52,996 nucleotides of DNA from an uncultured Anaerolineae bacterium (lineage in GTDB: Bacteria > Chloroflexota > Anaerolineae > CG2-30-64-16): positions 1 through 52,996 of the forward strand of contig CAKZKT010000019.1 in NCBI GenBank assembly GCA_937124585.1. The letters run 5' to 3'. Numbering within the stretch: the first letter of the stretch is position 1; each line of letters opens with the position of its first letter. Shown one piece after another: positions 32,999 through 44,079 of the stretch. Below the pieces are notes generated by a model. That model saw nothing but the letters and a program-made list of their open reading frames with translations. It had not been told where the DNA came from and did not search any database. The position numbers and the translations under genes were made by a program.

Positions 32999-33427
32999 AT
33001 GACTACCATCGCGGTCATAGACGGCATGGGCGGCGGGATCGGCGTCCAGATCGTGACGCAACTGCGTCAGGAGTTGCCGCTGGACGTGGAGATCCTGGCC
33101 CTGGGCGCCAACGCGGTGGCCACCGATCGCATGATGCAGGCGCGGGCCAGCCGCGGGGCCAGCGGCGAGAACGCCATCCGCGTCTCGATCAACCTGGCCG
33201 ATTTTATCATCGGGCCTATCGGCATCGTGATCCCGAACGCGATGATGGGTGAGATCACGCCCGGCATCGCGGAGGCGGTGGCGGGTGCGCGCGGCTACAA
33301 GCTGTTGCTGCCCGTCAACCAGCCGCACTTCGAGATCGTCGGCATCGAGTGGAAGGCGCTCACCAAGCAGATCAGCGCAGCGATCGCGGTGATTCGCGAA
33401 CGAGGAAAGATCGGCGGAGGCGCGTGA
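32999..33427 (+). CDS. DUF3842 family protein
   Basis: 142 residues. The sequence starts with a nucleotide-binding-like strand-loop (IAVIDGMGGGIGVQIV) and continues with LGANAVATDRMMQARASRGASGENAI, the hallmark of DUF3842. No activity is known for the family; the glycine-rich N-terminus suggests a Rossmann-like fold. AGGTGAGGTG lies just upstream of ATG 32999. The next gene, a BCD-type transporter, is 145 bases downstream on the same strand and could share the transcript. Confidence 0.85.
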   Translation: MTTIAVIDGMGGGIGVQIVTQLRQELPLDVEILALGANAVATDRMMQARASRGASGENAIRVSINLADFIIGPIGIVIPNAMMGEITPGIAEAVAGARGYKLLLPVNQPHFEIVGIEWKALTKQISAAIAVIRERGKIGGGA

Positions 33428-33572
33428 AGCGCATGTTTGAGTCATAGAGCAGGGAGCAGCATGCCGTCGCGATAATCCCGGGCTGATTGTAGATTGGCTT
33501 TCAGATTGTGACGTTTCTACAGCATAAAATGGTTTGCAGAAACCGTATCTGAAGTCTGGAGGTGCTCTCTCT

Positions 33573-34901
33573 ATGCGTATCTTGAATTACATCCGTCTTG
33601 CGGGCTTTCCGGTCGGTCTGGGATTGACCAGCGCATTCGTGGGCGGAACACTCAATCGCGTGATGATCGTGGAGTTGGGGCTGCCTGCTTCCCTCGTTGG
33701 TTTTCTCTTTGCCCTGCCGCTGCTCGTTTCGCCCCTGCGCGTTTGGCTCGGCTATCATTCCGACTCTCATCCATTATGGGACCTCCGTCGCGAACCATAT
33801 ATCATTTCGGGCGCATTCCTGGCCGTCCTGGCGGTACTCGCAGCGACCCTGCTCACGCTCAACAGCCAGCTGATTGGTTTGCAGATCATCCTGCCGGTTG
33901 TGCTGGTATTCATCCTCTACGGCATCGGGAAGAACCTTGCCAGCAACACCTTCGAGGCCTTGCTGGCAGATAAATTCCAGGGAGACCAGCGTCCGCGCGC
34001 GGTCACCCTGTTCAAAGTCGCTATGTTCGCCGGCATCATCGGCGGGGCGGTGGCGTTGGGAAGGCTCCTCGATCCCTTCAGCCCGGCCCGGCTGACGGCC
34101 ATCGTCATCGGTCTCATGGTAACGGTACTGGTCATCACCGTTCTCGGTTCATTGCGACAAGAGCCGCGCAGCCAGCTCTTGAAAGCTGCCAGCGAGCACT
34201 CCCGCGCCGTGCCTTTTCTGAAAACCATCCAAACCGTGATTCTGCCCGACCGGCAGGTGCGCATTTTCTTCGTCATCGTGATGCTGACCGTCTTGGGAAC
34301 GCTGACGCAGGATGTGCTCCTCGAACCCTATGGCGCGCTTGCCCTCGGCATGAGCGTGGGGCAAACCGCTCGCCTGACCGCTATTTGGGGCAGCGGAACT
34401 GTGCTGGGGATGGTGGTCACGGGTGTCTGGCTGGTCAAGCGTTTCGGATACGGCGCGGTGATGCGGGTTGGCCTGCTGATCGGCGTGCTCGTCTTCATCG
34501 GTCTGATCCTGGCCGGAGTTTTGCGGAATCCCGCCGTCTTTATGGCGCTGGTCTTCGGTTTGGGCATCAGCACGGGGCTGTCCTCGGCAGGCTTGCTGAC
34601 CGCCGTCATCGAGTTCACGACCCCTGCTCGCGCCGGGTTGCTGATGGGCATCTGGGGTTTGGCGCACGAACTGGGTCAGGCGGCTGGCAGCCTGATGGGT
34701 GGGGCGGTGGTGGACATCATGCGTGTCTTCACCAATAACAACGTCCTGGTTTCTTATGGCACCGTTTTCATGTTCGAAGCCACGCTTCTCTCTTTCGCTC
34801 TGTTGCTTTTGAAAAAGATGGATTTGAGCCAGTCTGCCGCAATCACAGGGAATGAACTTCGCAACGCCGCATTGATCCCCGGTGCCGTTTTCGACAATTG
34901 A
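33573..34901 (+). CDS. PucC-like (BCD family) MFS transporter
   Basis: 442 residues and about twelve membrane helices. The N-terminus (IRLAGFPVGLGLTSAFVGGTLNRVM with ELGLPASLVGFLF) and the loop FRVWLGYHSDSHPL-like LRVWLGYHSDSHPLWDLRR are characteristic of PucC/LhaA, the bacteriochlorophyll-delivery family. In phototrophs these proteins aid assembly of light-harvesting pigment proteins; no photosynthesis gene is present here. The base composition appears less GC-rich than its neighbours, with many TTT and TTG codons, which could mean transfer. GGAGGT lies 9 bases before ATG 33573. The substrate is unknown; a tetrapyrrole is a reasonable guess. Confidence 0.82.
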   Translation: MRILNYIRLAGFPVGLGLTSAFVGGTLNRVMIVELGLPASLVGFLFALPLLVSPLRVWLGYHSDSHPLWDLRREPYIISGAFLAVLAVLAATLLTLNSQLIGLQIILPVVLVFILYGIGKNLASNTFEALLADKFQGDQRPRAVTLFKVAMFAGIIGGAVALGRLLDPFSPARLTAIVIGLMVTVLVITVLGSLRQEPRSQLLKAASEHSRAVPFLKTIQTVILPDRQVRIFFVIVMLTVLGTLTQDVLLEPYGALALGMSVGQTARLTAIWGSGTVLGMVVTGVWLVKRFGYGAVMRVGLLIGVLVFIGLILAGVLRNPAVFMALVFGLGISTGLSSAGLLTAVIEFTTPARAGLLMGIWGLAHELGQAAGSLMGGAVVDIMRVFTNNNVLVSYGTVFMFEATLLSFALLLLKKMDLSQSAAITGNELRNAALIPGAVFDN

Positions 34902-35756: not shown

Positions 35757-35821
35757 TAAGCATACGCTGCTGTCCAGCACACGCTGCCCACCCCTTTCCG
35801 CGAGGGTGTCACGAAGCGCAC

Positions 35822-35944
35822 GATGCAGGCGGGTAATCTGGCTGCCTTGAACGGGTCAAGGTTACAGTTGCGGGACAGCGCCGGACTTTCACCGGTCTTC
35901 CCCCATTGCGCGCCACGCTTCCGAGCGGCTGGCGCACCTGCATC
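35822..35944 (-). ncRNA. Cobalamin riboswitch aptamer
   Basis: On the minus strand the conserved core is clear: GGGGGAAGACCGGTGAAAG, then TCCGGCGCTGTCCCGCAACTG, and the B12 box AGCCAGATTACCCGCCTGC. The closing stem is GATGCAGG with CCTGCATC (35937-35944 and 35822-35829). This matches the adenosylcobalamin-type riboswitch. A promoter lies just upstream (35970-35998) and two intrinsic terminators just downstream. The controlled genes are two small unknown ORFs rather than a B12 synthesis or transport gene. Confidence 0.92.
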
Positions 35945-35969
35945 TACTGCTATGCGATTATCGTTGCGC

Positions 35970-36041: not shown

Positions 36042-36070
36042 TTGACAGCCTCAAGCCTGTGCGGTATACT
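36042..36070 (+). promoter_or_regulatory. Strong sigma-70-type promoter of the nickel-handling operon
   Basis: TTGACA (36042-36047), a 17-base spacer and TATACT (36065-36070) give a near-consensus promoter about 47 bases before the first tandem-hairpin leader. It diverges from the riboswitch promoter 44 bases away. Confidence 0.8.
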
Positions 36071-36117
36071 GTAAATGTTCAGGGGCATGAAGCTGCCTGG
36101 GCATTCGAGTGAGAGCA

Positions 36118-36171
36118 GGTCATGAAGACCCCCGTTCCGGACATGAAGTCTGGTCGTGGTGGTCTTTTTTT
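36118..36171 (+). ncRNA. Tandem-hairpin leader RNA, copy A, upstream of the CooT-like gene
   Basis: Two successive hairpins share an AUGAA loop: GGTC-ATGAA-GACC (36118-36130) and CCGGAC-ATGAA-GTCTGG (36137-36153). GACC of the first can instead pair with GGTC at 36161-36164, immediately before seven T (36165-36171), giving a terminator. Formation of the terminator excludes hairpin 1, as in an attenuator or riboswitch. The SD of the next gene follows at 36180. I do not recognise it as a known RNA family. Confidence 0.6.
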
Positions 36172-36191
36172 CTTTTTCCGGAGGTCATCCC

Positions 36192-36398
36192 ATGTGCGAG
36201 GCGATGGTGTTGGTCACGGCGGCTGACGGCGAGCACGTGCTGATGCGCGACGTGATGCAGGTGCGGCCCGAGGGCGACCTGTTGCTCTTCTCGTCGCTGC
36301 TGGGCGAGCAGAAGCTGGTGCGCGGGCGGATTGACAAGATTGATCTGCTCAAGCATCGCATCTACGTGACGCCACTGCCGGAGCCGGTGGCGACGTAA
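36192..36398 (+). CDS. CooT family nickel-binding protein
   Basis: 68 residues, matching CooT (about 66) throughout: it opens MCEAMVLVTAADG, continues with VMQVRPEGDLLLFSSLLGEQK, and closes with GRIDKIDLLKHRIYV. In Rhodospirillum rubrum CooT binds nickel through Cys2, which is present here, and assists maturation of carbon monoxide dehydrogenase. No CO dehydrogenase gene is in this window. GGAGGT lies 6 bases before ATG 36192. The leader RNA and strong promoter upstream suggest regulation by metal or metabolite. Confidence 0.85.
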   Translation: MCEAMVLVTAADGEHVLMRDVMQVRPEGDLLLFSSLLGEQKLVRGRIDKIDLLKHRIYVTPLPEPVAT

Positions 36399-36410
36399 CC
36401 TCTCCCCCGG

Positions 36411-36433
36411 CCCCTCGCCTCCCAGGCGAGGGG
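36411..36433. repeat. GC-rich palindrome in the cooT-cooJ spacer
   Basis: CCCCTCGCCT and AGGCGAGGGG form a perfect 10-bp stem around CCC. A second imperfect C/G-rich inverted stretch follows to about 36476. There is no T-run, so it is more likely a dispersed repeat than a terminator. Confidence 0.7.
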
Positions 36434-36510
36434 AGTACCTCTCCCTCTTCCCTGGCGGGAAGGGGGGCGAGGGAGCAGGTCGGCTGGACAACCGCATACC
36501 TTTGACTGGA

Positions 36511-36566
36511 GGCCATGAAGGTCGTTTCCGGCATGAACGCCGGACGCGCTTGCATGGCCTTTTTTT
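36511..36566 (+). ncRNA. Tandem-hairpin leader RNA, copy B, upstream of the histidine-tailed gene
   Basis: The architecture of copy A recurs: GGCC-ATGAA-GGTC (36511-36523) and a CCGGC-ATGAAC-GCCGG hairpin (36528-36543). GGCCATG (36511-36517) can also pair with CATGGCC (36553-36559), which is followed by seven T (36560-36566). The paired bases differ from copy A but pairing is kept, while the ATGAA loops are unchanged. Confidence 0.6.
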
Positions 36567-36591
36567 GTTTCTCACGATCTGGAGGTGGCAC

Positions 36592-36891
36592 ATGACCATG
36601 AACGACATCAAGAAGCTGCGCGTGTTGCTGCCGCACTGGCTGGAGCACAGCGCATCGCACGCCGACGACTACCGCGCGTGGATCGAGCGGGCGCGGGCGG
36701 TCGGCGCCGATCACGTGGCCGAGCACCTGGCCGCGGCGGTGGAGAAGCTGGAGGGCGTGAATCGCGACTTGCAAGGCGCGCTGGAGCACCTGGGCGGGCC
36801 AGACAGGCCCGGCGATCACGAGCACGAGCATGTGCATCATCGCCATGCCCATCCGCACGAACACGGCGAGCACCATCACCACGACCAATGA
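36592..36891 (+). CDS. CooJ-like histidine-rich nickel-binding protein
   Basis: 99 residues. A helical N-terminal part (about 1-72: LPHWLEHSASHADDYRAW) is followed by a tail with 13 histidines in the last 25 residues, mixed with Asp and Glu. The layout is that of CooJ, the nickel chaperone paired with CooT, and of other metal-storage proteins with a His tail; sequence homology to CooJ itself cannot be proven here. GGAGGT lies 5 bases before ATG 36592. The second tandem-hairpin leader sits directly upstream. Confidence 0.75.
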   Translation: MTMNDIKKLRVLLPHWLEHSASHADDYRAWIERARAVGADHVAEHLAAAVEKLEGVNRDLQGALEHLGGPDRPGDHEHEHVHHRHAHPHEHGEHHHHDQ

Positions 36892-36938: not shown

Positions 36939-37580
36939 ATGGCTGCGCCGATGCCCGATCAACAAGCCTTCTTCGACCGCGCCGCGGCTACCTGGGATGA
37001 TCAGACCTCTGCCGAGGCGCGCAGCCGCCTGGCCGAGATCGTGGCCGGCCTGGGCATCCCGGCCGACGCGACCGTGCTCGACGTCGGCTGCGGCACCGGC
37101 ATCCTCTTCCCGCTGCTGGTGGCCGCGGTCGGCGAGGGCGGCCGCATCGTGGCGCTAGACATCTCGCGCGAGATGTTGCGTCGCAGCCAGGCCAAGGGGT
37201 ACGCCGTTCACCTGGTGCAGGCGGACGCGCACCGGCCACCGCTGCGCCGTGCCGCGTTCGACTGGGTCATCTGCAACGCGGTGCTGCCGCACTTCGACGA
37301 CAAGCAGGCCGCGCTGACCGAACTGGCGCGCTGCCTGGTGCCGGGTGGCACGCTGGTGGTGTGCCACAGCCACAGCCGGCACTTCATCAACAACCTGCAC
37401 CGGGACGTCGGCGGGGTCGTCGCCGAGGATCGCGTGCCCGATCCCGCGCTGATGGCGCAACTGCTGCGCGCCGCGGGGCTGGAGCCGTCGTCCATCGTGG
37501 ACGGCACCGACCGCTACGTGGCCGTGGCGCGCCGGATCGGCGACCCACGGCATCCGCAGGGCGACAACGATCCGCCCTGA
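36939..37580 (+). CDS. Class I SAM-dependent methyltransferase
   Basis: 213 residues. SAM-binding motif I is VLDVGCGTGILFPLL, then IVALDISREMLRRS, DAHRPPLRRAAFDWVICNAVLPHF and PGGTLVVCHSHSR. The acceptor is unknown. Its place between nickel-chaperone genes and an FmdE/ABC-transport set is suggestive of a metal-related small molecule, but nothing in the sequence proves that. Start at ATG 36939 is adjacent to GGAG; ATG 36951 would give a 12-base spacing. Confidence 0.85.
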   Translation: MAAPMPDQQAFFDRAAATWDDQTSAEARSRLAEIVAGLGIPADATVLDVGCGTGILFPLLVAAVGEGGRIVALDISREMLRRSQAKGYAVHLVQADAHRPPLRRAAFDWVICNAVLPHFDDKQAALTELARCLVPGGTLVVCHSHSRHFINNLHRDVGGVVAEDRVPDPALMAQLLRAAGLEPSSIVDGTDRYVAVARRIGDPRHPQGDNDPP

Positions 37581-37691
37581 CGCCGATTTGCGACCGCACG
37601 GTCATCGGCCCGGTCCCACCGGGAGGCTTTGCACTCGGAGACCGGCCAACGCGAGAAAACGACTTTCAGACTAACCGACCAGGAGACTTCC

Positions 37692-38321
37692 ATGCTCGAC
37701 ATCGCAGGCGCACAACGTTTTCACGGCCATATGTGTCCCGGCCTGGCCATCGGCATCCGCGCGGCCGAGATCGCGCTGGCCGAGATCGGCGCGCATTCGG
37801 CCGATGAGGAGATCGTCGCCATCGTCGAGACCGACATGTGCGGCGTGGACGCCATCCAGTACCTCACCGGCTGCACCTTCGGCAAAGGCAACCTGATCCA
37901 TCTGGACTATGGCAAGAGCGCCTTCACCTTCATCCGCCGCTCCGACGGCAAGGCGCTGCGCATCGTGGCCCGGCCCGACGCGTTCGGCCCGCCCGATCCG
38001 GAATGGTCGGCGCTGCGGGCGCGCGTGTTCGGCGGCAAGGCCACGCCGGAGGAACAAGCGCAGTTCGCCGCAGCCCAAGCGCAGCGAACGCAGGCGATCC
38101 TGGACGCGCCGCTCGACCGGCTCTTCGATGTGCGGCCCGTCGAGCCGCGCATCCCGGCCAGCCCGCCCTGGCCTGCGGGCCAAGCGGGCCAGGGGGCGCG
38201 CATCATGGCCTCGCTGACGTGCGAGGAGTGCGGCGAGGCGACGATGGAGACGCGTACGCGGCGCTTCAACGGCCGCACCCTGTGCATCCCCTGCTTCGAG
38301 GCGGCGGAGAAACGGTGGTAA
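37692..38321 (+). CDS. FmdE family protein with C-terminal zinc ribbon
   Basis: 209 residues. The FmdE domain (about 1-150) begins GAQRFHGHMCPGLAIGIRAAE with the conserved His and Cys, and has VETDMCGVDAIQYLTGCTFGKGNLI, a second conserved Cys pair. A zinc-ribbon-like tail follows (CEECGEATMET, then CIPCFE). The family was named after a formylmethanofuran dehydrogenase subunit but is widely found alone beside metal transporters. AGGAG lies 6 bases before ATG 37692. Here it follows nickel-type chaperones and precedes an ABC importer, so a metal-handling role is likely. Confidence 0.9.
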   Translation: MLDIAGAQRFHGHMCPGLAIGIRAAEIALAEIGAHSADEEIVAIVETDMCGVDAIQYLTGCTFGKGNLIHLDYGKSAFTFIRRSDGKALRIVARPDAFGPPDPEWSALRARVFGGKATPEEQAQFAAAQAQRTQAILDAPLDRLFDVRPVEPRIPASPPWPAGQAGQGARIMASLTCEECGEATMETRTRRFNGRTLCIPCFEAAEKRW

Positions 38322-38347
38322 GCCCTCAGGCCGAGGGTGAAGGGCAC

Positions 38348-38383
38348 CACGTGCCAGGCATCTTGCAGAGTGCCTGGCACGTG
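38348..38383. repeat. 36-bp palindromic repeat (GTGCCAGGCAC family)
   Basis: A perfect 13-bp stem (CACGTGCCAGGCA with TGCCTGGCACGTG) encloses a 10-base loop. Read on the minus strand the loop is almost identical to the loop in the copies at the right edge of the window, so stem and loop are conserved together. It lies between the FmdE and permease genes. Confidence 0.85.
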
Positions 38384-38409
38384 AGCACGGTGATTTTCAG
38401 ATCAGTCAA

Positions 38410-39381
38410 ATGGACGTTCGTCGCGCATTATCCTACCTCGTGACGCTGTGGGTCGTGCTGACCCTCAACTTCCTCCTCCCGCGGCTGCTGCCCGGTGACC
38501 CGCTGGACGCGCTTTTCGATCGCGACCGGGCCGGCTACGTGGCCGACGAGGCCGTGCGCAGCCGGTTGGCCGCGTATTACGGCCTGGATCGGCCGCTGGC
38601 CCACCAGTATGCGGATTACCTGCTTGCCGCGCTGCGGGGCGACCTGGGCTGGTCCATCTGGCTGAACCGGCCTGTGGCCGAGCTGATTGCCGGCCGGCTG
38701 CCGTGGACGCTGCTGCTGACGCTGACCAGCCTGGCGTTGGCGTCGTTGATCGGCGTCTGGCTGGGCGGGGAGGCGGGGTGGCGCCGCGGTAGCCGTGCCG
38801 ATCGTTGGGCTGTGACCGCCGGCATCATCGCCAGCAACGCGCCGGTGTACCTCGTGGGGGTCGGCCTGCTGATCGTGTTCGGCGCCCGGTTGGGCTGGCT
38901 GCCGCTGGGGGGCGGCCGCACCGCCTTCGCGGTCTATCCGCACGCGCTGGCCGCGGCCGGCGACGTGGGGCGCCACCTCCTCCTGCCGCTTGCCACGCTC
39001 ACGCTGCATCTGGTGGGCGCTAAGCTGCTGCTGGTCCGCAACAGCATGGTGAGCGTGCTGGGCGAAGATTTCATGCTGGTTGCCCGCGCCAAAGGACTGA
39101 CCGAGGGCCGGTTGAAGCGCGATCATGCTCTGCGCAACGCGCTGCTGCCGTTCGTGGCGCAACTGGGCGCGCAGATGGGCATGGCGGTCACCGGCGCGAT
39201 CTTCATCGAGACCGTCTTCGCCTATCCCGGCATGGGCCGGCTGATCTTCGACGCGGTGGGCGTGCGTGACTATCCATTGCTCCAGGGCGCCTTCCTGGTC
39301 GTGGCATTCGTGGTGCTGACGGCCAATCTGCTGGCCGACGAGGTCAACGCCCGGCTCGACCCACGGGTGAGGAGCGCGTGA
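38410..39381 (+). CDS. ABC transporter permease, NikB/DppB type
   Basis: 323 residues. The first helix with LNFLLPRLLPGDPLDALF, the periplasmic ALRGDLGWSIWLNRPVAELI segment, and the EAA-like cytoplasmic loop ARAKGLTEGRLKRDHALRNALLP are standard for DppB/NikB permeases; ETVFAYPGMGRLIF is also typical. It forms the membrane channel together with the NikC/DppC-type permease encoded after a 77-bp tandem-repeat array. The upstream nickel-chaperone and FmdE genes favour nickel as the substrate, although peptides are not excluded. No ribosome site is visible before ATG 38410. Confidence 0.9.
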   Translation: MDVRRALSYLVTLWVVLTLNFLLPRLLPGDPLDALFDRDRAGYVADEAVRSRLAAYYGLDRPLAHQYADYLLAALRGDLGWSIWLNRPVAELIAGRLPWTLLLTLTSLALASLIGVWLGGEAGWRRGSRADRWAVTAGIIASNAPVYLVGVGLLIVFGARLGWLPLGGGRTAFAVYPHALAAAGDVGRHLLLPLATLTLHLVGAKLLLVRNSMVSVLGEDFMLVARAKGLTEGRLKRDHALRNALLPFVAQLGAQMGMAVTGAIFIETVFAYPGMGRLIFDAVGVRDYPLLQGAFLVVAFVVLTANLLADEVNARLDPRVRSA

Positions 39382-39405
39382 GCGATGGACAGGAGCGAGC
39401 ACTTG

Positions 39406-39713
39406 TTTGGCTTGCGGCGACGTGTCGCCGCTTTCCAAAGCGCCGGCGAGCCGGCGCAATCCACAGGGGAGGGGCACACCACTTTGGCTTGCGGCGACGT
39501 GTCGCCGCTTTCCAAAGCGCCGGCGAGCCGGCGCAATCCACAGGGGAGGGGCACACCACTTTGGCTTGCGGCGACGTGTCGCCGCTTTCCAAAGCGCCGT
39601 CGAGCCGGCGCAATCCATAGGGGAGGGGCGCACCGCTTTGGCTTGCGGCGACACGTCGCCGCTTTCCAAAGCGCCGGCGAGCCGGCGCAATCCACAGCGA
39701 AAGGGGGCACAAC
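39406..39713. repeat. Four tandem 77-bp repeats with paired palindromes
   Basis: Copies start at 39406, 39483, 39560 and 39637 (period exactly 77, about four copies). Each has two perfect or near-perfect palindromes: GCGGCGACGTGTCGCCGC and GCGCCGGCGAGCCGGCGC. Copy 4 changes the centre of the first palindrome from GT to AC and stays palindromic; copy 3 has one mismatch in the second. The period is not a multiple of three, so the open frame through it does not encode a repeated peptide. It fills the space between the two permease genes. Confidence 0.92.
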
Positions 39714-39714
39714 A

Positions 39715-40518
39715 ATGCCCGGTCTCGGCATCCTGACGATTTTCGTCCTCGTCGCGCTCCTGGCGCCCGTCCTGGCCCCATACGATCCCCATGCGTTGAG
39801 CGGCCAGCCGTTGGAACGGCCCAGCGCGGCGCACCCCCTGGGCACCAACGACATCGGCCAGGACATCCTGAGCGAGCTGATCTTCGGCGCGCGCATCTCG
39901 CTGATCGTGGCGCTGGCCGCGTCCATGGGCACGGTGGCGCTGGCCACGCTGATCGGCGCTGCCGCAGGCTACCTGGGCGGATGGCTGGATACGGCGCTGA
40001 TGCGTGGGGTGGATGTGTTGCTGGCGCTGCCGCGGCTGCCGCTGCTGATCCTGCTGGCCGCGCTGTTAGGCGCTGGCCTGCCGCAGACGATCGCCATCAT
40101 CGCGCTCCTGTTCTGGCCCGCCGCGGCGCGTACCATTCGTGCGCAAACGCAAAGCCTGCGTCGTCGCGGCTACATCCAGATGGCGCGACAGCTCGGCGGC
40201 GGGACGGGCTACGTGTTGCGCCGTCACATCGTGCCCGCGCTCGCGCCCCTGCTGGCATTCGAACTGGTGATGGCCGCCGGCCGCGCGGTGGCGCTGGAGG
40301 CGGGCCTGGCGTTCCTGGGCATCGGCGACGCGGCCGCCAAGAGCTGGGGCCTGATGATGCGCTTCGCGCTCAACCTGCCCGGCCTCCTGCTGGGCGATCG
40401 CTGGCTGTGGTGGTTATTGCCGCCCGCCGCCTGCCTGACCCTGTTGATCTTGACGCTGACCTGCATCGGCATTGGATTGGAAGAACGATGGCAACCGCGA
40501 TTGAAACGACGCCCGTAG
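39715..40518 (+). CDS. ABC transporter permease, NikC/DppC type
   Basis: 267 residues. The opening membrane helix (MPGLGILTIFVLVALLAPVL) leads to YDPHAL, HPLGTNDIGQDILSELIFGARISL, ALPRLPLLILLAALLG and the EAA-type loop RRRGYIQMARQLGGGTGYVLRRHIVP, all typical of DppC/NikC. The frame upstream is repeat array, so ATG 39715 with AAGGGGG 6-9 bases upstream is chosen. Its 3' end overlaps the ATPase start by 31 bases, so translation is probably coupled. It pairs with the permease at 38410. Confidence 0.9.
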   Translation: MPGLGILTIFVLVALLAPVLAPYDPHALSGQPLERPSAAHPLGTNDIGQDILSELIFGARISLIVALAASMGTVALATLIGAAAGYLGGWLDTALMRGVDVLLALPRLPLLILLAALLGAGLPQTIAIIALLFWPAAARTIRAQTQSLRRRGYIQMARQLGGGTGYVLRRHIVPALAPLLAFELVMAAGRAVALEAGLAFLGIGDAAAKSWGLMMRFALNLPGLLLGDRWLWWLLPPAACLTLLILTLTCIGIGLEERWQPRLKRRP

Positions 40519-42338
40519 AGACATTGCATGCAGCGCCTCTACAACAACCGGGGGACATAACGTCTCTACGGCCAGCGGACACAACGTCCCGGCTATCCGT
40601 GCGCGACCTGCGCGTGCATTTCCCAACTGCGTGCGAGGTCGTGCGCGCTGTGGACGGCGTGTCGTTCGACCTGGCCGGCGGGGAGGCGCTGGCGGTCATC
40701 GGAGAGACCGGCTCGGGCAAGACCTCGATCGCCCGCGCGCTGTTAGGGCTGCATCCGGCCGGCGTGACGACGGGCAGCATCCGCCTGGCGGGCCAGGAGC
40801 TGGTTGGGCTGCCCGAGGACGCCTGGCGAGCGGTGCGCTGGCGGCGCATCGCGCTGGCCGCGCAGAACGCGGGCAGCGCATTCGACCCGGTCTACCGCAT
40901 CGGTGAGCAGATCGCCGAGCCGCTGCGCCACCATCGCGGCCTGACCCCGGTCGAGGCGCTGGCGCGGGCCATCCTGCTGGCCGAAGAGGTGGGGCTGTCC
41001 GCGCGCCACCTGGCCGCCTACCCGCACCAGCTCAGCGGCGGCGAGAAGCAGCGCGCCATGCTGGCCATGGCCCTCAGCTGCCAGCCCGAGATCCTGATCG
41101 TGGATGAGCCGACCAGCGGCCAGGATATGCTGGCGCGCGCCGAAGTGATCAGCCTGCTCGGCCGTCTACGCCGCGAGCGCGGCATGAGCTTGCTGCTCAT
41201 CTCCCATGACCTGGCTGCGGTGGCCCAACTGGCCGACCGGGTGGCCGTGCTCTATGCCGGGCAACTGGTCGAGGCCGGGCCGGCGGCCGGGCTTATCGAG
41301 GATCCACGGCATCCGTACACCTGGGGCCTGCGCAACGCCTATCCCAGCATGACCACGGCGCGCGATCTGGCCGGCATCCGCGGCGACCTGCCCGACCCGA
41401 CGCAGCCGCCGGCCGGCTGCCGCTTCCATCCCCGCTGCACACAGGCGGTTGAGCGCTGCCGACTGGTCGAGCCGACACTCATGCCGCTCGAACGCGCCAG
41501 GCCATTCCCTCGCCAGGGGGGTGAGGACCGTTGGATCGCCTGCCATCTGGGCGGATTGCAGACCCTGCTGCGGGCGACCGACCTGCGCAAGACCTTCTCG
41601 ACCAACGGGTCGGCCGCGAAGGTCGAGGCGGTGCGCGGGGCCGGCATCGAGGTGTACGAGGGGGAGGTCGTGGCGCTGGTGGGCCAGACCGGCAGCGGCA
41701 AGAGCACCCTGGCGCGGCTGATCGTCGGGCTGGAGCAGGCCGAGGCCGGCCGCGTGGAGCTGGAGGGTCAGGAGCTGACCGCGCTGACCGGTGAGGCGCT
41801 CCGGCGGGCGCGGCGGCGCGTCCAGTATATCGCCCAGGACCCGTTCGATGCGCTCAGCCCCCGGCTGACCGTGGCCGAGATCGTGCGTGAACCGCTGGAG
41901 ATCCATCGCCTCGGCACACGGGCCGAGCAGGACGCAGTCGTGCGCGATGCGCTGAGCGCGGTGGGCCTGCCGGTCGCGTCCGAGTTCCTGGCCCGCCATA
42001 CCCATGAGCTGAGCGGCGGCCAGTTGCAACGGATCGCCATCGCTCGCGCGCTCGTCCTCGACCCCAAGCTGCTGATCGCCGACGAGCCGGTCTCGATGCT
42101 CGACCCCAGCGAGCAGGCTCGCGTCATCATCCTGCTCAAGCAGATCCAGAACCAGCGCGGCATGGGGTTGGTGCTCATCTCGCACGACCTGGCGCTGGTG
42201 CGCAAAGTCGCCGATCGCATCTACGTGATGCGAGCGGGCGAAATCGTGGAATGGGGTCCGGCAAGCCGCATCATCAGCCGGCCACAGCACGAGTACACGG
42301 GCGCGCTGTTGGCCGCCGCGCCAGCATTTGATCTGTAG
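40488..42338 (+). CDS. Fused dual ABC ATPase, NikD-NikE/DppD-DppF type
   Basis: 616 residues with two complete ATPase domains. Domain 1: Walker A GETGSGKTS, signature LSGGEKQR, Walker B ILIVDEPTSGQD, then the oligopeptide/nickel-type cysteine tail (CRFHPRCTQAVERC). Domain 2: Walker A GQTGSGKST, signature LSGGQLQR, Walker B LLIADEPVSMLD. The pair drives the two permeases. Fusion into one chain is common in some lineages. N-terminal residues about 10-28 are encoded by a degenerate palindrome (GTAGAGAC at 40515-40522, GTCTCTAC at 40562-40569), so that part may be repeat-derived. Confidence 0.92.
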   Translation: MATAIETTPVETLHAAPLQQPGDITSLRPADTTSRLSVRDLRVHFPTACEVVRAVDGVSFDLAGGEALAVIGETGSGKTSIARALLGLHPAGVTTGSIRLAGQELVGLPEDAWRAVRWRRIALAAQNAGSAFDPVYRIGEQIAEPLRHHRGLTPVEALARAILLAEEVGLSARHLAAYPHQLSGGEKQRAMLAMALSCQPEILIVDEPTSGQDMLARAEVISLLGRLRRERGMSLLLISHDLAAVAQLADRVAVLYAGQLVEAGPAAGLIEDPRHPYTWGLRNAYPSMTTARDLAGIRGDLPDPTQPPAGCRFHPRCTQAVERCRLVEPTLMPLERARPFPRQGGEDRWIACHLGGLQTLLRATDLRKTFSTNGSAAKVEAVRGAGIEVYEGEVVALVGQTGSGKSTLARLIVGLEQAEAGRVELEGQELTALTGEALRRARRRVQYIAQDPFDALSPRLTVAEIVREPLEIHRLGTRAEQDAVVRDALSAVGLPVASEFLARHTHELSGGQLQRIAIARALVLDPKLLIADEPVSMLDPSEQARVIILLKQIQNQRGMGLVLISHDLALVRKVADRIYVMRAGEIVEWGPASRIISRPQHEYTGALLAAAPAFDL

Positions 42339-42367
42339 GGGCGGATGGCATCCGCCCTGTAGGGGCT
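42339..42367. repeat. GTAGGGGCGGATGGCATCCGCC-type palindrome
   Basis: GGGCGGATG and CATCCGCCC form a perfect pair flanked by GTAGGGG on both sides. A related element occurs after a GH3 gene at 48516-48545. Confidence 0.65.
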
Positions 42368-42396
42368 GGCAAGAAGATACAACTCGGAGGAACATC

Positions 42397-44079
42397 ATGT
42401 CACATCCCAACCGTCCATCGTTTCTCATCCTGATCGTGATCGCCGGGCTGCTGGCCGCGTGCGCAGCGCCGACGGCTACGCCTGCACCCGTCGCGCCGGA
42501 AGCGGCACCGACCGCCCCTGCCGCGGCGCCCGCATCCTCCACAGCCGCCCCCGCGCCAGCCCGCGTCAAGGCGCTCCGCCTGGTGGGTGGCACCGACTGG
42601 GGCTATCCGTCGCCCTTTGGCTTCAACCGCGGCCCCGGCTACACCCGGGCGTCCTACATCTTCGACACCCTCGTCTGGCGCGACCGCTTCGGCCAGACTA
42701 TCCCCTGGCTGGCCACCGAATGGCGCGTTTCAGACGACAACCTGACCTGGACCTTCACCCTGCGCGATGGCGTCAAGTGGCACGACGGCAAGCCGTTGAC
42801 GGTGGAGGATGTCGTCTTCTCGTACCAGTATTTCGCCAAGACTGGCAGCGGCTGGTTCATGGCGCCGATCAGCGATGTGGCGAGCGTGACGGCCGTGGGC
42901 GAGCGCCAGGTGGCGATCAAACTCAAGCGGCCTTTTGCACCATTCTTGACCACCATCGCGGAACCGGTCTTCATCATCCCCAAGCACATCTGGGAGAAGG
43001 TCGAGGATCCGAAGAAGTTCACTGGCCCCGAGGCGGTGATCGGCAGCGGGCCGTACAAACTCATCCAGTACAGCAAAGCAGAGGGTGCCTACCTCTACGA
43101 GGCCAATGACGACTACTTCCTGGGCAAGCCCTACGTCCAGCGGCTGGAGTTCATCCCGGTCGGCGATGTGGCGTTGGCGCTGGCCAACCGCCAGATAGAC
43201 GCGTTCGACAAGTTCGGCGGCGTGACCGATGAGATGCTGGCGCCGTTCACCAAGGCGCCCTTCCGGATCGGCAAGGCGCCGGGCGAGTGGGGCATGAACC
43301 TTTACTTCAACCTGAGCGCCCAATCGCCCATCGCGGATGTGCGGGTGCGACGGGCCATCGCCCATACCGTGGATCGGGATGCGCTGGTGGCGCGGCTGCT
43401 GCTGGGCTTCGGCGAACCGGGCAGCCCTGGCGGCCTGCCACCGGCCAACCCGTTCTACAATCCTGCGGCGCAGACCGTCTATCCGCACGACGTGGCGCAA
43501 GCGAAAGCGTTGCTGCGCGAGGCCGACTATGCCGAGGGCCAGGCCGTGACGATCAACCTGACCTACTCCACGAGCGACAACCCGCGGCTGGTCGAGATGC
43601 TGGCCGCGCAACTGGCTGAGGCCGGCATCGCCCTCAAGCCGGTGCCCATGGATCAGGCCGCGCTGGACGCGGCGGCCCAGGCCGGCAACTATGACATGCT
43701 GCTGGTCGGCTTCGGCGGCCTGGGCGGCGACCCGGATCAGCTACGGCGCAACTTCGCCAGCACGAGCAAGACGGTCGGTTTCTCGCGTGCCCGCGGCTAT
43801 GCCAGCGCCGAGTTCGATAAACTGGCCGACGAGCAGGTTTCCTTGCTCGACTTCGCGGCGCGCAAAGCCGCGCTCGACCGCATGCAGATGATCCTGGCGC
43901 AGGACCTGCCCGCACTGCCGCTTTACTACACCGCGCGCGTGGTGGTTTACAACGCCGAGGTCTTCGACAACTGGTACTTCACCCCCGGCGGCTATGGCGG
44001 CGGCATCCCCATGCCGTTCAACAAGCATCAGTTCATCACCGGTCTGGAGACGGGGTTGAAGATCAAAGGTGCGCAATAG
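42397..44079 (+). CDS. Substrate-binding lipoprotein, family 5 (peptide/nickel ABC importer)
   Basis: 560 residues. A lipoprotein signal (LILIVIAGLLAAC) and a Thr/Pro/Ala linker are followed by an SBP family 5 fold: TLRDGVKWHDGKPLTVEDVVFSY is the family signature, then ADVRVRRAIAHTVDRDALV. GGAGG lies 6 bases before ATG 42397. It is the last gene of the importer. Gene context (CooT, CooJ-like, FmdE) favours nickel; neighbouring GH3 genes would also fit an oligosaccharide, as some family 5 proteins bind sugars. A palindromic repeat lies just upstream (42339-42367). Confidence 0.92.
   Translation: MSHPNRPSFLILIVIAGLLAACAAPTATPAPVAPEAAPTAPAAAPASSTAAPAPARVKALRLVGGTDWGYPSPFGFNRGPGYTRASYIFDTLVWRDRFGQTIPWLATEWRVSDDNLTWTFTLRDGVKWHDGKPLTVEDVVFSYQYFAKTGSGWFMAPISDVASVTAVGERQVAIKLKRPFAPFLTTIAEPVFIIPKHIWEKVEDPKKFTGPEAVIGSGPYKLIQYSKAEGAYLYEANDDYFLGKPYVQRLEFIPVGDVALALANRQIDAFDKFGGVTDEMLAPFTKAPFRIGKAPGEWGMNLYFNLSAQSPIADVRVRRAIAHTVDRDALVARLLLGFGEPGSPGGLPPANPFYNPAAQTVYPHDVAQAKALLREADYAEGQAVTINLTYSTSDNPRLVEMLAAQLAEAGIALKPVPMDQAALDAAAQAGNYDMLLVGFGGLGGDPDQLRRNFASTSKTVGFSRARGYASAEFDKLADEQVSLLDFAARKAALDRMQMILAQDLPALPLYYTARVVVYNAEVFDNWYFTPGGYGGGIPMPFNKHQFITGLETGLKIKGAQ

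Follow-up and report, generated by a model that had tools for sequence, protein, structure and literature searches.

Nickel uptake is usually put down to NikR, a repressor that binds DNA, and the NiCo riboswitch (czcD), which folds around a four-way junction in a nickel/cobalt gene context, serves export. Tandem mini-hairpins with like loops (ACGR) stand before a switch in guanidine-II (mini-ykkC) RNAs, and hairpin loops of the C-ANGGA type are read by the small dimeric beta-protein CsrA/RsmE. The role known so far for CooT is to carry nickel for CO dehydrogenase. The CooT dimer binds one Ni with a Kd of 9 nM (PMC6006190), and NikM and NikK have been proposed from genome context to be parts of nickel transporters (PMC545781). 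The targets of ANTAR antiterminators have hexanucleotide loops with A at position 1 and G at position 4, and in one of them, the eutP leader, induction suffers when the linker is shortened to 3 or lengthened to 14 bases (PMC3369931).

Here we analyze a leader RNA in a window of 52,996 nucleotides, positions 1 to 52,996 of contig CAKZKT010000019.1 from an uncultured Anaerolineae bacterium. The class to which it belongs precedes cooT in Chloroflexota and nickel-uptake operons in the phylum of the Syntrophobacteraceae. With the ANTAR-target dual hairpins of the eut, nas and ami leaders it has in common small hairpins with conserved loops, a second hairpin that shares sequence with the terminator and, as we propose, a bound state that is ON; it differs in its five-base ANGAA loops, its long and variable linker and the lack of an ANTAR protein in half of the genomes. 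Unlike the NiCo riboswitch it precedes uptake genes, its loop sequence and its genes are other than those of guanidine-II, and it matches no Rfam model. The ANGAA loop also departs from that read by CsrA/RsmE, as GGA, which CsrA/RsmE targets require, is absent from the P2 loops of 22 leaders, and CooT is only a putative RNA binder. The operons behind the leader are of the same kind as those of the delta-proteobacterial NikR regulon, nikMQO and nikK (PMC545781), but NikR reads DNA palindromes whereas control here would lie in an RNA leader. The type of mechanism is a known one; what appears new is the RNA class together with its nickel regulon.

Results

The original prediction placed two tandem-hairpin leader RNAs, copies A and B, before two small putative nickel-chaperone genes. 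Both copies can be read directly from the window, recur in other genomes and fold better than dinucleotide shuffles of themselves, copy A with a z of -2.6 (4 of 200 shuffles equally good) and copy B with a z of -5.0 (0 of 200). The parts of a leader follow one another in the order sigma70 promoter, P1 with an ANGAA loop, linker, P2 with an A(U/C)GAA loop, and a terminator that shares P2 (Table 1). In copy A, which scores 56.9 bits with covariance model R2 (see below), P1 has the sequence CAGGGGC-AUGAA-GCUGCCUG and lies about 10 bases 3' of the promoter. The terminator stem pairs AAGACC (36125-36130) with GGUCUU (36161-36166) and ends in a U-run (36165-36171), and the Shine-Dalgarno sequence GGAGGT (36180-36185) is followed by the ATG of cooT at 36192. 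Of the two hairpins first proposed as the pair in this copy, the one at 36118 is retained as P2, while CCGGAC-AUGAA-GUCUGG (36137-36153) is the apical hairpin of the terminator and its loop is not conserved. P1 had been overlooked, and it is P1 and P2 that form the pair conserved across genomes.

Table 1. Features of the two leaders and of the genes around them in the window.
Feature	Position	Strand	Basis
DUF3842 gene	32999..33427	+	PF12953 E 2e-47
Promoter of leader A, sigma70-type, TTGACA-17-TATACT	36042..36070	+	Sequence
P1 hairpin, loop AUGAA 36087-36091	36080..36099	+	Sequence; covariation on 22 leaders
P2 hairpin GGUC-AUGAA-GACC, loop 36122-36126, antiterminator half	36118..36130	+	Sequence; covariation; folding
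Intrinsic terminator, leader A	36125..36171	+	Sequence, folding; P2-exclusive
cooT (CooT family, PF10133)	36192..36398	+	Pfam E 2.9e-19; PDB CooT matches
Copy B, weak member	36511..36566	+	Sequence, folding; R2 23.5 bits, E 2e-4 in window
99-aa protein with His-rich tail behind copy B	36592..36891	+	CooJ-like by composition only
Methyltransferase, FmdE-family gene, Opp/Nik-type ABC transporter, in line behind both leaders	36939..44079	+	

A loose pattern for a single hairpin gave hundreds of chance matches in the genome itself and was set aside. A tight pattern of two AUGAA hairpins and a terminator, run over 84,980 species, returned 25 places, five of which look real (L024, L029, L030, L031, L036); in one Syntrophobacteraceae contig and one Desulfobacteraceae contig the leader lies directly 5' of nikM. 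In Chloroflexota, five genomes from two families have a leader before cooT, its promoter spacing unchanged; among them are two related genera (G002, G008) and members of another family (G011, G024). Seven leaders, drawn from the Chloroflexota cooT loci and the Syntrophobacteraceae and Desulfobacteraceae nikM loci, made up covariance model R1, with which a scan of 345 genomes of the phylum of the Syntrophobacteraceae genome turned up more copies, and model R2 was built from 22 leaders, the R1-found ones included. R2 matches occurred in 30 of the 40 genomes of a panel (20 R1-positive, 20 R1-negative), often several to a genome. The scan of Chloroflexota that had been suggested at the outset gave just three strong R2 matches in 301 genomes, every one before cooT, and R2 is therefore specific. 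Strong matches in the window's family were confined to G000, G002 and G008, which are the genomes that have the cooT leader locus, and G009 gave a borderline one (E 0.04). A promoter scoring at least 9 of 12 precedes 14 of the 22 leaders, compared with 4% of shuffles. The original prediction had staked itself on covariation and on more copies 5' of metal genes, and both were found.

Around cooT of Acetoanaerobium noterae there was no R2 match; NZ_CP154629.1, a 2.6-Mb record filed as a plasmid of this species, is as large as a complete chromosome and includes a CooT gene. G001, a genus mate of G002, has two divergent CooT genes without a leader (L004, L005), and in L005 cooT is directly followed by a short CooJ-like gene with a His tail. 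As had first been supposed, the leader matches no known riboswitch family: Rfam 15, searched at gathering and at relaxed thresholds, holds no family that fits it, and the only match above chance was a cobalamin riboswitch on the opposite strand (RF00174, 56 bits, 35811-35956, minus strand), which points away from cooT. The stretch that carries it, between DUF3842 and cooT, is missing in the relatives G002 and G011. A literature search on nickel riboswitches, nikM, CooT, DUF3842 and leader RNA, with subscription papers and preprints mostly outside its scope, yielded no description of the class.

Comparison of the 22 leaders shows an RNA with two mutually exclusive folds. P1 encloses its near-constant loop with base pairs that are variously GC, CG, AU and UA. 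Together, P1 and P2 contain 24 cells changed on both sides, and their covariation scores 0.41, where shuffles reach 0.18 and slid partners no more than 0.14; the alignment includes R1-found leaders and is thereby biased towards the modelled structure. Covariation in P1 was already seen in the seven founder leaders. RNAalifold, unaided, finds P1 and the terminator, whose stem also covaries. The loop, at first described as a constant AUGAA, is better described as near-constant with the consensus ANGAA: P2 loops are AUGAA in 15 leaders, ACGAA in six and AAGAA in one, and P1 loops, which drift more, are mostly AUGAA, with AGGAA, ACGAA, AAGAA, AAAAA and others besides. In some leaders (L066, L070, L071, L073) the P1 loop is degenerate or a clear P1 is absent, and the linker between P1 and P2 ranges from 7 to 52 bases.

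The reading of the locus as a functional leader RNA with alternative pairing was borne out, in that the terminator excludes P2. About half of the leaders can also form a second terminator pairing, GGYCAYGAA / UUCRUGRCC, and in these the base at loop position 2 (U or C) covaries with its partner. Both terminator forms break P2. Folded in full, 20 of the 22 leaders have the terminator as their optimum, and in these 20 forcing P2 costs 4.5-12.4 kcal/mol; before the 3' strand of the terminator has been made, P2 is the optimum in 15 of 22. The optimality of the terminator and the cost of P2 suggest that termination is the default and that P2 needs help to win. The tips of the terminators (L057, L061, L082 and others) are often a C-AGAA-G tetraloop, which resembles an ANGAA loop minus one base and may merely be a stable tetraloop.

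The two hairpins of copy B, GGCC-AUGAA-GGUC (36511-36523) and UCCGGC-AUGAAC-GCCGGA (36527-36544, with a six-base loop), stand only a few bases apart, and both terminator pairings are possible, with the terminator strand CAUGGCC at 36553-36559 and a U-run at 36560-36566, followed by GGAGGT (36581-36586) and the ATG at 36592. The first hairpin is retained in the counterparts of copy B in both G002 and G008, a U-run only in that of G002. Copy B, whose activity is less certain than that of copy A, may be its single-site relative within the operon. Between cooT and copy B lies a GC-rich palindromic stretch (36400-36478), and G002 has a similar one at the corresponding position.

The gene behind copy A proved to encode CooT as expected; the proposed CooJ behind copy B did not hold beyond a resemblance, the 99-residue protein sharing a His-rich tail with CooJ and finding no match in family searches. 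The genes further along in Table 1 are probably on a single transcript with the leaders. Between the ABC transporter's two permease genes lies an array of 3.8 copies of a 77-base tandem repeat (39406-39697, 96% matches). In relatives the DUF3842 gene stands directly 5' of the leader and cooT; in the window a PUCC-family transporter gene (33534-34901, Pfam E 1e-87) is situated between DUF3842 and cooT.

Elsewhere, Pfam assigns the genes behind the leaders to CbiM/NikM (ten genes tested), TonB receptors (six), DUF4198 (four) and FmdE (three), together with ExbB, ExbD, FecCD, porin-like proteins and unknown outer-membrane proteins; the R2 matches G442 C233 17823, G548 C25 6816, G409 C371 22186 and G493 C58 are without gene assignment. 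By this gene content the regulon is well supported as one of nickel acquisition, and cobalt is also conceivable for the cbiM-like genes. The leader is tied to DUF3842 and cooT by the gene orders DUF3842-cooT-leader-nikM (L082), DUF3842-cooT-leader-FecCD (L094) and ExbB-ExbD-TonB-DUF3842-cooT-leader-TonB receptor (L092/L108). In the 40-genome panel, with genomes split after the data had been seen into those clearly motif-positive (R2 E below 1e-4) and the others, and with statistics that take no account of relatedness or of a CODH life style in common, CooT is present in 23/23 against 10/17 (p 0.001) and DUF3842, which tracks the motif even better, in 22/23 against 6/17 (p 5e-5). R2 matches in two genomes that lack CooT were weak, at E 9e-4 and 5e-3.

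Discussion

We consider it probable that this leader is a transcription attenuator of a nickel regulon and that a binder acting in trans recognizes P1 and P2. RNA polymerase would make P1 first, P2 second and the terminator, whose stem uses part of P2, last. Left unbound, the RNA would fold into the terminator and the genes would be off; a binder seated on both ANGAA-loop hairpins would keep P2 closed, block the terminator and allow readthrough into nickel uptake and insertion genes. What we infer here is which way control runs, its signal and a protein as the binder. The conserved loops are part of the antiterminated fold, so a factor that reads them should switch the genes on, and because the bound state would be ON and most of the genes serve uptake, the binder is expected to act when nickel is scarce. 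The binder is most likely a protein rather than a metabolite, and a protein dimer that grips a pair of similar loops joined by a flexible linker would fit the variable spacing of P1 and P2.

The main rival to a protein binder is a small-molecule riboswitch in which the loops of two like mini-hairpins meet around a ligand that signals nickel shortage, or around a nickel-dependent metabolite. Tandem hairpins, near-constant loops and a terminator that shares the second hairpin would all suit such a switch, as would the putative status of the protein partner, and we regard it as a real if minority possibility. It sits less well with linkers that vary in length across the whole range seen, with P1 loops that drift more than P2 loops and with the several copies that have no clear P1, and it would leave the tight link with CooT and DUF3842 unexplained. 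A riboswitch for Ni(II) or Co(II) itself, as first suggested, would account for the nickel genes behind the leader, and that link stands; direct sensing of the metal by the RNA is nevertheless unlikely, for with the conserved loops in the ON fold and mostly uptake genes downstream, abundant metal would turn uptake on, which is the wrong sign, and neither the NiCo riboswitch nor any other Rfam family matches.

Control by an ANTAR protein dimer on both hairpins would use the same arrangement, in which the second of two hairpins shares sequence with the terminator (PMC3369931). ANTAR targets need six-base loops with A1 and G4, however, and the loops here have five bases with G3; the linkers range over 7-52 bases, unlike the length-sensitive linker of the eutP leader, and an ANTAR protein is absent from 12 of the 23 motif-positive genomes, so that we hold this explanation to be very improbable. 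Just as improbable is an attenuator that couples to translation of a leader peptide from the AUG in the P2 loop: an open frame does start there in leader A of the window, in G002 and in G008, with peptides that are alike, but the AUG is lost in 7 of the 22 P2 loops (six ACGAA, one AAGAA). ANTAR control is thus disfavoured by loops, linker and genome content, the leader peptide by the start codon, and known riboswitches by the Rfam search.

Returning to a protein that holds both hairpins, CooT, perhaps together with DUF3842, is the leading candidate, and a tentative one: apo-CooT would bind the paired ANGAA hairpins and nickel would release it. CooT is a protein of 7 kDa encoded behind its own copy of the leader (copy A). 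CooT is not known to bind RNA; its family may once have been labelled a "predicted RNA-binding protein" in Pfam, a label that carries no weight here. A fold search with CooT returned CooT structures and, beyond them, only a weak RimM PRC barrel (Z 4.4) and ATP-synthase epsilon; CsrA and Hfq are absent among the matches listed, which excludes neither. The fold of DUF3842 is Rossmann-like and gives no hint of RNA. Were CooT the binder, a metallochaperone acting on RNA would run a whole nickel-acquisition regulon.

The leader class offers a direct route to what senses nickel in these anaerobes and links CooT and the uncharacterized DUF3842 to gene control. It also predicts nickel roles for FmdE, the TonB receptor and other genes behind it. 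In L108 (G512) and L109 (G598) the leader stands before a gene for a secreted protein with many D-x-D-x-D-G repeats, with ExbB/ExbD behind it and cooT further on, and this protein is possibly a metal-binding part of TonB-type uptake.
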